Below are positions 2,274 through 5,301 of a stretch of DNA of 5,301 bases, one piece after another. The DNA is from Thermoleophilia bacterium (lineage in GTDB: Bacteria; Actinomycetota; Thermoleophilia; Gaiellales; Gaiellaceae). Made by a program: the position numbers and the translations under genes. Location: assembly GCA_016844515.1 (NCBI GenBank), contig JAERMP010000291.1, positions 1-5,301 of the forward strand, in the 5' to 3' direction. The first letter of the stretch is position 1; each line of letters begins with the position of its first letter. Under the pieces are notes generated by a model that was not told the DNA's origin, did no database searches, and saw only the letters and a program-made list of their open reading frames with translations.

Positions 2274-2993
2274 CCGCCCCCGGTCAGATCCTCCTCGAGC
2301 AGGGCCGGGAACTGCGCGAGAGACGACACCACGATGTCCGGGGACGGATCGGCCGATTCGAGCGTCTCAGGTCGGAACTTTCCGGTTCGGACGAGTGCGG
2401 TTCGCATTCCGAAGAGACGAGCGCCGCGAACGTCCGCCTCGACGTCGTCCGTCACGAGCCAGGTCCGCTCCGGTTCGGCGTCGAGAGCGTCGAGCGCCGC
2501 CGCAAAGTACGAGGGGCTCGGCTTCCCGAGAACCGTCGCCTCGACACCGGTCGAATACTCGAGCCCGGAGACGAACGCGCCGCTGTCGAGCATCGGGCCG
2601 CGGCTCGTCTGCCACCACTTGTTCTTGTGCAGACAGAAGAACGACGCGCCCATTTGAATCTCCTCGAATGCTCGAGCGAGGTTCATGTAGCTGAACACCT
2701 GATTGGGCTCGAGCGTCTCGTCGCACCCTCCGATGAGCACAGCCTCGGCGTCGCTTCCCCGAAAGCTCGCGCGCTGCCGCGCCGGGCGTCGTCTGCAACT
2801 CGTCGTCCTCGAGCGTGAAGCCCATCTCGCGAAGCTCCTCCGCGAGGCGGCAGCGAGGCCTGGTCGAGTTGTTCGTCACGAAACGCAAGGCATGCCCCGA
2901 ACGCCGGAGGCCTGCCACTGCGTCGACCGCACCAGGGATCGGGTCGCCCGACACGTGCAGAACTCCGTCGATGTCGAGCAGAATGCACGCCAT
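2261..2993 (-). pseudogene. HAD-superfamily subfamily IIA phosphatase (LHPP-like), frameshifted with apparent internal deletion
   Basis: This is a HAD-IIA sugar- or phosphoester-type phosphatase related to the LHPP/TIGR01458 group; the substrate is unknown. From ATG 2993-2991 the first frame gives about 81 good residues: the nucleophile motif LLDIDGVL (5-12; D7 and D9) and motif II FVTNNST (38-44). It then loses frame near 2752. The rest is in another frame, ending at the stop at 2261-2263, and carries NQVFSYMNLARAF, the motif III lysine (GKPSPSYF) and motif IV TDDVEADV (usually GDD). Compared with LHPP-type proteins about 22-26 residues of the cap region are missing at the junction, and the missing length must be 2 modulo 3 to restore frame. 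As read, the first frame runs on to a stop at 2367 and gives about 208 residues with a nonsense tail. Either the gene is dead or this is an assembly deletion. It is first in the HAD-acpS-nnr cluster and has no clear ribosome binding site. Confidence 0.82.
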
Positions 2994-3405
2994 GGAGCGT
3001 GAGTCTATTCGGGTCACGCGCTCCGTTTCCCTCCCGGTCTCCGAGATTGCGATTCGGGTCTCCCGGTCGAGCGGCCCAGGGGGGCAACACGCCCAGAAGT
3101 CCTCCACGCGGGTCGAGGCCGTCTTCGATGTCGAGGCGTCCGGGGCGTTGACCGACACGCAAAAACGGCGTGTGCTTGCCCGCACCGGGCCCGTCCTTCG
3201 GGCGATTGCGCAGGACGAGCGGAGCCAGCTACGGAACCGCGAGCTCGCCGTCGAGCGGCTCGCCGAGAAGTTGCGCGCCGCCCTCGCGGTGCCTCGGCGA
3301 CGCGTCCCGACCCGGCCGGGCGCGGCAGCGCGCGAGCGTCGCATGACCGAGAAGAAGCGGCGCTCCAGAGTGAAAAGGCTTCGCGGTCAGCCCGAGGATG
3401 AATGA
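2992..3405 (+). CDS. arfB: ArfB/YaeJ-type peptidyl-tRNA hydrolase (ribosome rescue)
   Basis: ArfB enters stalled non-stop ribosomes and hydrolyses the peptidyl-tRNA with its GGQ loop. The 137 residues match the usual size (about 140). A class-I release-factor catalytic core covers about residues 15-100, with SRSSGPGGQHAQKSSTRVE (24-42) containing the catalytic G30-G31-Q32. The C-terminal tail (about 98-137) is very basic, with RRRVPTRP followed by the ERRMTEKKRRSRVKRLR stretch typical of the part of ArfB that occupies the mRNA channel. It is too short and lacks the codon-recognition domains of RF1 or RF2. The start was taken as ATG 2992, about 25 residues before the GGQ loop region; ATG 2983 is an alternative. 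No ribosome binding site is evident, and the start overlaps that of the divergent HAD gene in the sequence CATG, so a leaderless transcript is possible. The gene ends 83 bp before the NuoEF gene. Confidence 0.92.
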   Translation: MERESIRVTRSVSLPVSEIAIRVSRSSGPGGQHAQKSSTRVEAVFDVEASGALTDTQKRRVLARTGPVLRAIAQDERSQLRNRELAVERLAEKLRAALAVPRRRVPTRPGAAARERRMTEKKRRSRVKRLRGQPEDE

Positions 3406-3420
3406 GCGAGGCGCGGACGG

Positions 3421-3439
3421 CCTTGTAACAGTCTGTTAC
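3421..3439 (+). promoter_or_regulatory. Palindromic operator candidate upstream of the NuoEF gene (copy 1)
   Basis: The 19-mer CCTTGTAACAGTCTGTTAC contains a perfect 7-1-7 palindrome: GTAACAG (3425-3431), T (3432), CTGTTAC (3433-3439). It is AT-richer than its surroundings and lies 50 bp before the NuoEF start in the only gap between arfB and that gene, where a repressor would block transcription. The same 19 bases occur in reverse complement at 4225-4243. The symmetry fits a dimeric regulator of the TetR or GntR kind, but the regulator is not in the window and I cannot name it. Confidence 0.6.
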
Positions 3440-3476
3440 TTGGCGCTTCTCCGCTTGCGCTCCGAAGGCGCAACGT

Positions 3477-3480
3477 AGGA
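3477..3480 (+). promoter_or_regulatory. Modest ribosome binding site for the NuoEF GTG start
   Basis: AGGA is placed 8 nt before GTG 3489. It supports that start over any internal start, because the NuoE helical region begins immediately after it. Confidence 0.5.
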
Positions 3481-3488
3481 TCGAAGGC

Positions 3489-5075
3489 GTGGACGTTCTT
3501 CGAGCGACCGCGCTCATCGCGGAGCTGCCGGTCGAGCGCACCCGGCTGCTCGACAACCTCGGCAGGATTCGCCGCGAGGTCGGCCCGATCGGCCCGGAGC
3601 TCTCGGACGCTCTCGCCGATCACATGAACATCCGGCGCGGCGAGGTGCACGAGGTCGTCTCGTTCTACTCGTTCTTGCAGGTTCCCGCCGATGCCGTTCG
3701 GGTGTGCACGGGGCCCGTGTGCGACTGCTTCGGCGCCCGGGAGCTGCTCGAGCGCACTCCCGACGCGATCGAGGTCGCGTGCCTCGGTCACTGCGATCTC
3801 GCGCCGGCGATGACGCGCGGAGACGAGATCGTCCCGCAGGTCACGCACTCGACGAACGACGGCTCCGCGGTCGGGCTCGGAGCGGGTGACGTGACGCTCG
3901 CCGACTACGCGGCGCGCGGAGGTCTCGACCTCCTTCGAAACCTTCCGCCGCTCGAGCGGATCGTGGGCGAGCTGAAGGCGTCGGGTCTTAGCGGGTTCGG
4001 CGGCGCCGGCTTCCCGACCGGCACGAAGTGGGAGGCGGTCTCGCGAGAGCCGGGCCCGCGGTTCGTCGTCGTGAACGCCGACGAGGGCGAGCCCGGGACG
4101 ATCAAGGATCGCTACGTGATGGAGCTCCGTCCCCATCTGCTGATCGAGGCGACGCTGATTGCGATGGGCTCACTCGACGCGGCCGAGGGCTACATCTATC
4201 TGCGGGAGGAGTACGCGACCGCTCGTAACAGACTGTTACAAGGCATCGACGAGTTCCGCAGTGCAGGGTTGCTGGATGGGCTCTCGCTCGAGCTCGTGAT
4301 CGGGGCGGGCGCCTACATCGCCGGCGAGGAGACGGCGATGCTCGAGTCGATGGAGGGCCGGCGGGCGATGCCTCGTCTCAAGCCGCCGTTCCCGAGCCAG
4401 GTCGGATATCTCGGCCGCCCGACGCTGATCAACAACGTCGAGACGCTGGCGCACATCCCGGCCATCCTCCGTAACGGAGGCGAGTGGTGGGCGGGCCTCG
4501 GAACCCGCGGCGCTTCGGGGACGCGGCTGTGGTCAATCACGGGCGCCGTCGGGAAGCCGGGCTGTTACGAGGCGCCCAGCGGCGTGACGACGCGCGAGCT
4601 GGTCGACGAGTATGCAGGGGGCTTCACCGACGACGTGGGCTCGATCGTCCCGGGCGGCGCCGCAAGCGGGATCCTGCCACCCTCTGCGCTCGACGCGCCG
4701 CTCACCCGGGACGGCTTGCGGGAGTACGACGCCGGGCCTGGCTCGGCAGCCGTGCAGGTCTTCCCCACGTCCTACTCCCCGCTTCGCCTCCTCGCCGAGA
4801 CGATGCGCTTCTTCGCCGAGGAGTCGTGCCAGAAGTGCACGCCGTGCCGGATCGGCAATCGCGCGCTGCACCACCTCTTCGAGGAGCTCGCACACGGCAA
4901 AGCTGCGATGACGCGCGAGAAGGTCGACGAGTGGTTGCTGGCGATGGAGAAGACCTCGATCTGCGGCCTCGGGCAGGCCTCGCCGTTCCCGGTGCGCAAC
5001 GCGATGAAGTGGTGGCCGGACCCTCGATCTGCGGCCTCGGCCAGGCCTCGCCGTTCCCCGTGCGCAATGCGATGA
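3489..5075 (+). CDS. nuoF: NuoE-NuoF fusion: NADH-oxidising flavin/iron-sulfur subunit (formate dehydrogenase beta/gamma-like), C-terminus frameshifted
   Basis: This protein passes electrons between NAD(H) and iron-sulfur clusters through FMN, in an NAD-dependent formate-type dehydrogenase or complex I-like module. The NuoE part (about 1-115) has a helical bundle ending in VVSFYSFL, then [2Fe-2S] ligands C73, C78, C98 and C102; the gap between the Cys pairs is shorter than in classic NuoE. The NuoF part (about 140-511) has GFGGAGFPTGTKW (169-181), NADEGEPG (196-203) and GAGAYIAGEE (272-281) for FMN and NADH binding, then the 4Fe-4S ligands C447, C450, C453 and C492. The start is GTG with AGGA 8 nt upstream. 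A 68-bp imperfect tandem duplication (4954-5089) shifts the frame after D511, giving 17 foreign residues and a stop at 5075. Without one copy the protein would be 521 residues, ending ...LFAPLGEGVA at a TGA at 5120-5122 that overlaps the next start. FdsB/FdsG-type identity is favoured because a fused E-F followed directly by a ferredoxin-domain subunit, with no nuoD next to it, is unusual for complex I. Confidence 0.9.
   Translation: MDVLRATALIAELPVERTRLLDNLGRIRREVGPIGPELSDALADHMNIRRGEVHEVVSFYSFLQVPADAVRVCTGPVCDCFGARELLERTPDAIEVACLGHCDLAPAMTRGDEIVPQVTHSTNDGSAVGLGAGDVTLADYAARGGLDLLRNLPPLERIVGELKASGLSGFGGAGFPTGTKWEAVSREPGPRFVVVNADEGEPGTIKDRYVMELRPHLLIEATLIAMGSLDAAEGYIYLREEYATARNRLLQGIDEFRSAGLLDGLSLELVIGAGAYIAGEETAMLESMEGRRAMPRLKPPFPSQVGYLGRPTLINNVETLAHIPAILRNGGEWWAGLGTRGASGTRLWSITGAVGKPGCYEAPSGVTTRELVDEYAGGFTDDVGSIVPGGAASGILPPSALDAPLTRDGLREYDAGPGSAAVQVFPTSYSPLRLLAETMRFFAEESCQKCTPCRIGNRALHHLFEELAHGKAAMTREKVDEWLLAMEKTSICGLGQASPFPVRNAMKWWPDPRSAASARPRRSPCAMR
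4225..4243 (-). promoter_or_regulatory. Palindromic operator candidate inside the NuoEF gene (copy 2)
   Basis: The plus strand reads GTAACAGACTGTTACAAGG, the exact reverse complement of the 19-mer at 3421-3439, with palindrome arms 4225-4231 and 4233-4239 around A4232. It encodes R246-N247-R248-L249-L250-Q251 with CGT AAC AGA CTG TTA CAA, an AT-rich run. The AGA and TTA here are the only ones I found in this reading frame, suggesting the DNA sequence itself is constrained. With copy 1 it could support looping repression. Confidence 0.5.
4954..5021 (+). repeat. 68-bp tandem duplication in the NuoEF 3' end, copy 1
   Basis: The first unit of a 68-bp direct tandem repeat encodes the end of the NuoF domain in frame, SICGLGQASPFPVRNAMKWW and the following PD, including the fourth 4Fe-4S cysteine C492. 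It matches copy 2 at 65 of 68 positions. Its three distinguishing bases are all third codon positions (GGG, CCG, AAC). Confidence 0.97.
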
Positions 5076-5089
5076 AGTGGTGGCCGGAC
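5022..5089 (+). repeat. 68-bp tandem duplication in the NuoEF 3' end, copy 2
   Basis: The second unit abuts copy 1 exactly. Because 68 is not a multiple of 3 it is read out of frame in the current gene, but in its own frame it encodes the same peptide (with GGC, CCC, AAT) and continues into DLFAPLGEGVA and a TGA at 5120-5122. That is the natural end of the protein. Confidence 0.97.
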
Positions 5090-5118: not shown

Positions 5119-5301
5119 GTGACGGAGATGGTCGAGTTCACGCTCGACGGCCGGAAGGTCGCCGCGAACGAGGGCGAGTTGCTCGTCCACGCGGCCGCGC
5201 GCCACGGCACCTTCATCCCAACGCTCTGCCACGACAACAAGCTCGAGCCTTACGGCGGCTGCCGCATGTGCGTCGTGGACGTCGAGGGCGCGCCACGGCA
5301 C
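5119..5301 (+). CDS. N-terminus of a NuoG / formate dehydrogenase alpha-type iron-sulfur molybdopterin protein (partial)
   Basis: The gene runs off the window after 61 codons. What is present is the start of an N-terminal [2Fe-2S] ferredoxin-like domain: an FTLDGRKVAANEGELLVHAA strand-helix (7-26), then FIPTLC with C37 and GGCRMCVVDVEG with C48 and C51. The fourth ligand is expected just beyond the window. This domain opens NuoG and the large NAD-linked formate dehydrogenase alpha subunits (FdsA/FdhA type). The catalytic molybdopterin part, which would separate these options, is not visible. The start is GTG 5119, giving a 4-nt GTGA overlap with the native stop of the NuoEF gene (TGA 5120-5122), typical of translational coupling; ATG 5128 is an alternative. 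In the frameshifted version the upstream stop moves 44 nt away, so coupling would be lost. Confidence 0.85.
   Translation, partial: MTEMVEFTLDGRKVAANEGELLVHAAARHGTFIPTLCHDNKLEPYGGCRMCVVDVEGAPRH

Follow-up and report, generated by a model that had tools for sequence, protein, structure and literature searches.

To our knowledge, dispersed sites that organise the chromosome have been described from few bacteria. The matS site of MatP, with the consensus GTGACRNYGTCAC, is 13 bp long and confined to the terminus, and the BldD box reads nTnACnC(A/T)GnGTnAn. The NBS of Noc and the SBS of SlmA are tens of short dispersed palindromes, about 70 and 24-52 respectively (PMC4726725). For ParB, PMC7383237 states that residue 173 contacts parS and that K or R at position 179 or 184 is permissive in the reprogramming of ParB to Noc. 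Table 1 of PMC1762422 lists 11.60 and 11.08 bp per turn for fits to looping by the Lac repressor (LacR) inside E. coli cells.

Here we describe, from the class Thermoleophilia, a palindrome with an odd-centred 7-1-7 core of 15 bp, which occurs twice in a 5,301-nt stretch of genomic DNA (hereafter the window). It resembles NBS and SBS in being present as tens of dispersed copies (8-46 per site-rich genome), and differs from them in its odd-centred core, in its 23-bp consensus and in forming phased pairs. Some of its spellings contain the GTGAC...GTCAC halves of matS, but with five central bases instead of three, and in the closed chromosome of G083 the sites lie both near the origin and opposite to it. 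The spelling of genome G002, GTGACACTGTGTCAC, fits the BldD box, whereas other spellings do not, and many sites lie in coding DNA or at gene ends.

Results

The minus strand of the window holds an NAD(P)H-hydrate repair gene, AcpS, a HAD hydrolase and an open reading frame that matches no family. On the plus strand lie an ArfB-like gene, then NuoEF, a NuoE-NuoF fusion-like gene with 2Fe-2S thioredoxin-like, 51K FMN and 4Fe-4S parts, and finally a NuoG/HoxU-like gene of which only the start falls in the window (Table 1). It was compared with 20 relatives' loci (L001-L020), the nearest of which are Thermoleophilia MAGs; L001, the nearest of all, shows 92% protein identity and 89.2% identity in NuoEF DNA. 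A 68-bp direct tandem duplication (96% alike) at 4954-5089 upsets the NuoEF frame; both of its copies align to one L001 stretch (~9466-9533), the sequence thus being single in L001, and the duplication is possibly an assembly or strain artefact. At 2753-2764, in the HAD hydrolase gene, about 65 bp of L001 (7200-7274) are missing and the gene is split over two frames.

Table 1. Features of the window (positions counted from its first nucleotide)
Feature	Coordinates	Strand	Remarks
ArfB-like (RF-1 domain) gene within open reading frame	2815-3405	+	upstream of first palindrome
20-nt exact inverted repeat, first arm	3420-3439	+	partner 4225-4244
Upstream site CCTTGTAACAGTCTGTTACTTGG	3421-3443		fits 23-bp consensus CCWWGTNACASNSTGTNACWWGG; 50-68 bp before NuoEF start codon
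NuoE-NuoF fusion-like gene, host of internal palindrome	3489-5018	+	frame upset after ~5018
Internal site GCTCGTAACAGACTGTTACAAGG, in NuoEF coding region	4221-4243		lineage-specific
20-nt exact inverted repeat, second arm	4225-4244	-	partner 3420-3439
NuoG/HoxU-like 2Fe-2S gene, start only	5119-5301	+	runs off window

Both palindromes contain a perfect dyad with zero mismatches, GTAACAGTCTGTTAC at 3425-3439 and GTAACAGACTGTTAC at 4225-4239. The original prediction, that a 19-bp palindromic element with the core GTAACAG-N-CTGTTAC is duplicated here in inverted orientation with centres 800 bp apart, was borne out, the exact match (GCCTTGTAACAGTCTGTTAC, 100%) being one base longer, at 20 nt, and the centres falling at 3432 and 4232. 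The rare codons pointed out in the internal copy are likewise real, as TTA, AGA and CAA are each used a single time in the NuoEF reading frame up to 5018 (1/57 Leu, 1/39 Arg and 1/7 Gln codons), all inside the element; the in-frame TTA is accounted for by the palindrome, and rare-tRNA control of the bldA type, raised at the outset as speculation, has no sign in its favour. The chance of the match had been put at well below 1 in 1,000, a valid figure if the two sequences are unrelated; relatives, however, carry the motif throughout their genomes, with a consensus of 23 bp, and because of this family the 20-nt match alone does not tie the two copies in the window together. That the palindromes reflect chance, or protein-coding constraint alone, is hardly credible: the residues RNRLLQ encoded by the internal copy do recur in L006, but only 0.01 dyads are expected in the window with up to three mismatches allowed, two copies were obtained in none of 200 shuffles, and a genome-wide excess over the reversed pattern already refutes this explanation for the family as a whole.

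This excess was seen in the genomes of L001, L002, L003, L005, L009 and L018, in which the pattern GTNACANNNTGTNAC occurs 31, 46, 16, 28, 19 and 4 times, respectively, as against 0-1 times per genome for its reversed form. The sequence GTAACAGNCTGTTAC itself stands at four places in the genome of L001, with near-matches at more. At least one strict match was present in 91 of 249 genomes of the class; 22 genomes hold 8-46 strict sites and the other 227 hold 0-5, and these counts are not independent since the genomes rich in sites seem to form a single clade. A pattern with a looser centre and fixed flanks matched in 49 of the 249 genomes, and it also brought to light further spellings, among them one with an asymmetric centre, GTGACGATNNGTCAC, in G062 and G154. 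The consensus quoted in Table 1 was taken over the fetched sites.

In a sample of 20 loci each from G001, G002 and G005, with genes delimited by a home-made codon-usage caller, strict sites lie within genes, over gene ends and in gaps. Their hosts and neighbours include DNA polymerase III alpha-like, DNA polymerase I, RsmG/GidB, CofD, EF-P, MutM/Fpg, CysS, ribosomal protein S2 and QueA; ten proteins (counting the ParB of G163) were checked by Pfam, further hosts and neighbours being named by eye only. As these are unrelated housekeeping genes, a single-pathway regulon was rejected; the scan of related genomes that had been proposed led to many loci elsewhere. A phage origin was rejected as well, no exact match to CWWGTAACAGNCTGTTACWWG being found in a viral contig collection. 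Complementarity between the WW flanks of a site does not exceed that of shuffled sequence, which speaks against an RNA hairpin, and the interiors of pairs fold mostly near shuffled energy (mean z -0.54, n = 60), with exceptions near -3 in L135 (-3.17), L078 (-2.92) and L170 (-2.91); structured RNA was set aside on both counts.

No bias towards origin or terminus was consistent over G163, G009 and G083. Six of the 18 sites of G163 lie on its 367-kb dnaA contig, as compared with none of the 12 strict sites of G009. In the closed chromosome of G083, relaxed forms included, there are 5 sites per 400 kb round the origin versus 4 per 400 kb opposite; all 5 of the origin-region sites lie to one side of the origin, a small sample in which a bias is not clear. 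Within the paper collection searched, there was no paper with any of four spellings of the site and none on Thermoleophilia with ParB, and searches combining Gaiella with parS or Thermoleophilia with palindromic gave unrelated papers only.

The fate of the two copies differs among the relatives. The internal dyad is absent from all 17 relatives aligned over that stretch (20 were fetched; L019 ends too early, and L016 and L020 were left out of the alignment), the nearest approach being L006, with a 6/7 dyad, the codons AAC AGA CTG CTG CAA and the same residues RNRLLQ as in the window. At the upstream place, L002/L092 has a perfect dyad of another spelling, CCTTGTGACACTGTGTCACTTGG, the NuoEF gap of L003 holds two dyads as a 67-bp pair, and L001 retains a 5/7 remnant; no strict site occurs anywhere in the other 17 fetched loci, among which L007 and L016 hold almost no upstream DNA. 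Compared with L001, the internal stretch differs at 6 of 21 bases, a level reached by 3.2% of 504 windows of the gene (binomial P = 0.02). Absence of both sites from close relatives, which had been named as a ground for abandoning the original reading, thus holds in half, through the internal copy.

Taken with these comparisons, the internal copy looks like a young site that arose either through substitutions or as a copy of the upstream one. Inverted copying of a short tract, by template switch or conversion, would account for the exact 20-nt inverted identity, which includes the non-palindromic flank GCCTT, and for the clustering of the changes relative to L001, in which CTGTT and AGGC are already present. 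The flank identity is weak evidence for copying because the consensus itself contains CCWW, and the 6/7 dyad of L006 with the same RNRLLQ leaves stepwise substitution open to consideration as well; we regard inverted copying as improbable.

The original prediction had taken the two copies for the operators of a dimeric repressor that loops the 800 bp between them. Its notion of a dimer-bound dyad and of bridging fits the helically phased pairs of the relatives described below, but that of an operator pair specific to NuoEF is not supported. Such local control could draw on the arrangement of the copies, one flanking and the other entering the same gene, on the short distance of the upstream copy from the start codon and its counterparts in L002 and L003, and on the internal stretch, which has diverged from L001 further than the greater part of the gene. 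It is nevertheless very improbable, given that the identical motif is scattered over many unrelated loci, that the phased pairs elsewhere are spaced 53-128 and not 800 bp, and that an alignment of NuoEF orthologues, called for at the outset, found the internal dyad in none of the 17 relatives aligned there.

The half-site is spelled in a species-specific manner, as GTAACAG, GTGACAC, GTTACAA or GTAACAC, and these spellings change in place. Upstream of NuoEF, the site of the window aligns without gaps to that of G002 (GTAACAG versus GTGACAC), with a flank identity of 0.81, and at one place in the DNA polymerase III alpha-like gene GTGACAC (G002), GTAACAG (G005) and GTAACAC (G003) replace one another, with flank identities of 0.76-0.82. 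In these switches at the NuoEF gap and the polymerase gene the dyad is 7/7 on both sides, the change being symmetric. Over the 50 cross-genome comparisons listed, 38 were scored and 12, which contain gaps, were left unscored; 6 of the 50 run from the two sites of the window to genomes without a dyad there. Among the scored counterparts, 7/7 dyad pairs were kept in 20, 6 in 10, 5 in 2, 4 in 4 and 3 in 2.

Many sites have a partner. A weight-matrix scan (within 500 bp, score at least 17) found one at 22 of the 23 fetched G229 loci and 15 of the 18 fetched G033 loci; none of the 16 fetched strict sites of G005 had one, so that pairing is not general. Eight genomes together yielded 62 unique pairs, of which 60 measure less than 140 bp, the phased pairs being 53-128 bp apart. 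Spacings cluster near 70, 82, 93, 105, 116 and 128 bp in G229, G033 and G133, and near 54, 66, 77, 88 and 112 bp in G001-G003. The best period was 11.4 bp for 39 pairs and 11.5 bp for 16 pairs (concentration 0.77 and 0.84), both sets including orthologous loci, while G229 alone, with 22 pairs at 22 different loci, gave 11.35 bp at 0.85. None of 2000 jittered spacing sets was as strong, in each pair set; a period of 10.5 bp also scored fairly (0.60 and 0.68), so the exact value is soft. Pair spacing is thus periodic near the in vivo helical repeat, as for Lac-type auxiliary operators, from which these sites differ in having many pairs per genome and in their setting: of the 62 pairs, 25 are enclosed by convergent, 28 by tandem and 4 by divergent genes, while 4 fall within coding DNA and 1 touches the edge of a contig. 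The neighbouring gene has its stop codon in the TAA of the site at 27 pair ends.

All fetched loci of G229, G033 and G133 entered an orthologous comparison. In 15 of 17 comparisons a pair corresponds to a pair, always with the spacing kept within 2 bp; in the other two (L145/L161 and L146/L159) a pair faces a single site in G033. Identity was determined in 13 of the 15 kept pairs, picked by hand before the full comparison and in part sharing a locus, and amounted to 95.6% in the palindromes, 74.6% in the outer flanks, 77.2% in inner bases 5-20 and 62.2% in the middle of the spacer. Spacing is not kept in distant genomes, one locus measuring 70 bp in G033 and G229 and 379 bp in G166.

Two further features of the pairs were noted. 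A second spacing class of 368-401 bp appears in six genomes (G166 379, G244 368, G163 390, G139 392, G246 397 and G033 401); L128 (401 bp) and L158 (128 bp), considered as one locus, are alike at their inner ends only, with flanks unaligned at E 1e-40, and this equation was dropped. Within the pairs of G001-G003, the outer flank of one site is more complementary to that of the other than in shuffled sequence (0.75 versus 0.525; P = 0.014, 16 pairs), which no simple protein-site model needs.

Discussion

The dyads could be the ends of a small non-autonomous mobile element of the MITE or REPIN kind, in which case transposase synapsis would set the phased spacings and single sites would be remnants. 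Several observations point this way: (i) L124 (G229) and L133 (G133) align only across an element of 104-108 nt, (ii) L121, L144, L145 and L150 of G229 and L170 of G033 form a 115-117 bp group with a common right end, (iii) a TTCGACACGGCCCGAA-like sequence stands at many element ends, (iv) convergent settings of pairs far outnumber divergent ones, (v) copy number differs among relatives, and (vi) at two orthologous loci G229 has a pair and G033 a single site. From the subterminal sequence common to different loci, whole elements have likely been copied in the G229/G033 group. The common right end reads AAGAAAGACCGG..., and long hairpins are predicted in some of the 115-117 bp elements, only L170 folding clearly better than shuffled sequence. 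Against a mobile element stand the pairs and spacings kept in nearly all orthologous comparisons, the high identity of the sites beside a spacer middle that has drifted, the interiors mostly near shuffled folding energy, and the missing exact CWWGTAACAGNCTGTTACWWG in the viral collection; moreover, single sites switch spelling in place without insertion or deletion, and the internal copy of the window replaces, and does not interrupt, the aligned L001 sequence. Kept sites and spacing round a drifting interior, together with in-place change of spelling, indicate a function beyond parasitism, and we hold the mobile-element explanation to be unlikely.

As to the protein that may read the dyads, a tentative and still doubtful lead is ParB. 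Under this proposal the dyad would be a re-specified centromere-type site of the clade's ParB, in which parS was lost, residue 173 changed from R to K and residue 179 to R, the new site being the odd-centred and dispersed GTnACAS-N-STGTnAC, with phased pairs bridged by ParB. Its half-site GTnACAS has G1, T2, C5 and A6 in common with the GTTTCAC of parS; the dyad differs from canonical parS in its sequence, with one extra base at the centre, and is dispersed, not beside parB. Canonical parS (core GTTNCACGTGNAAC) occurs in 134 of the 249 class genomes: among the 22 that are site-rich it is present in G133 alone, among the remaining 227 in 133. The association of parS absence with site richness (Fisher P = 4e-7) is uncorrected for kinship. 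In G083, no parS core was found in 400 kb round the origin at up to 3 mismatches. In parS genomes such as G227, G130, G185, G234 and G189, canonical parS itself also stands in close pairs near parB, often at 33-39 bp.

The ParB proteins divide in a similar way. Among the 15 site-rich genomes tried first, the ParBs of the other 14 are 66-76% identical to that of G163, as against 46-57% in 15 parS genomes. Residues were then read in two sets of 30 genomes chosen on site and parS status, with numbering mapped by motif in this analysis onto that of PMC7383237; G250 was unreadable, G065 and G092 gave no match, and second hits in G181, G015 and G126 and two weaker G005 hits were not counted. Position 173 is K in 34 of 35 clade-type ParBs and N in one (G229), and 179 is R in all 35; in the 22 readable ParBs from outside the clade, 173 is R and 179 is never R. 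At position 203 the clade has A and most other ParBs have G, G087 and G050 being exceptions with A. The residues of Noc are Q173, K179, K184 and R201, and the clade differs from these not only at 173 and 179 but also at 184 (E/D) and at 201 (G in 34 of 35, R in G148). Rich site sets occur only in genomes with the altered ParB: at least 8 strict sites are present in 23 of the 35 genomes with a clade-type protein and fewer in 12 (0 in G039, G056 and G110), two of which, G062 and G154, have 11 and 8 sites by a second pattern, and all 22 genomes with a non-clade ParB have at most 3. Canonical parS is lacking in 34 of the 35 altered-ParB genomes.

Other results sit less well with ParB. A dyad, strict or one base off, lies about 1 kb from parB at only 3 of the 15 site-rich loci first examined (G163, G148 and G005). 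A scan of clade parB loci by a fixed criterion (7-bp arms, at least 7 A/T) found the present dyad in G163 and G148 and different, scattered dyads in four other genomes (one shared by G033 and G229, others in G003 and G244), with none common to these loci; a repeated GGTTAGAGCGCCGCTCTGATA dyad near parB, considered as a candidate site, proved to be part of tRNA-Ile. G039 and G244 have the same DNA-binding stretch in ParB, yet 0 and 4 strict sites, and the sites of G083 are as frequent opposite the origin as round it. Eight R173-type genomes, selected for the absence of parS, are also without a rich set of palindromes, so that the dyads cannot be predicted from the loss of canonical parS by itself; an R173 ParB without canonical parS, as judged by the exact core pattern, is found in L241-L248 (from G047, G052, G017, G070, G029, G131, G075 and G050). 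For the ParB lead, the clade counts as one evolutionary event.

Conclusions

The account that we prefer, and which we consider rather probable, is that both palindromes of the window are copies of a chromosome-dispersed dyad site for a putative dimeric DNA-binding protein of this Thermoleophilia clade, which would act in part through bridged pairs. We infer that the protein would bind dispersed dyads in a sequence-specific manner and that, where two dyads stand 53-128 bp apart in fixed helical phase, it would bridge them into a short loop. The role of the sites would be in chromosome architecture or housekeeping, and not in the control of neighbouring genes. In the window, the upstream copy would belong to a locus that is old and shared with relatives, and the internal copy would have arisen in the window's own lineage through change in place.

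What emerges looks like an unrecognised chromosome-wide system and not a switch for one gene. Its species dialects, changing in place, offer a natural experiment in protein-DNA co-evolution, and its phased pairs, which hold their spacing almost exactly although the sequence between them drifts, record DNA looping in the genome itself. Should ParB be the binder, the system would show how a centromere site comes to be rewritten and scattered, and the clade would possess a chromosome-wide ParB network with species dialects.
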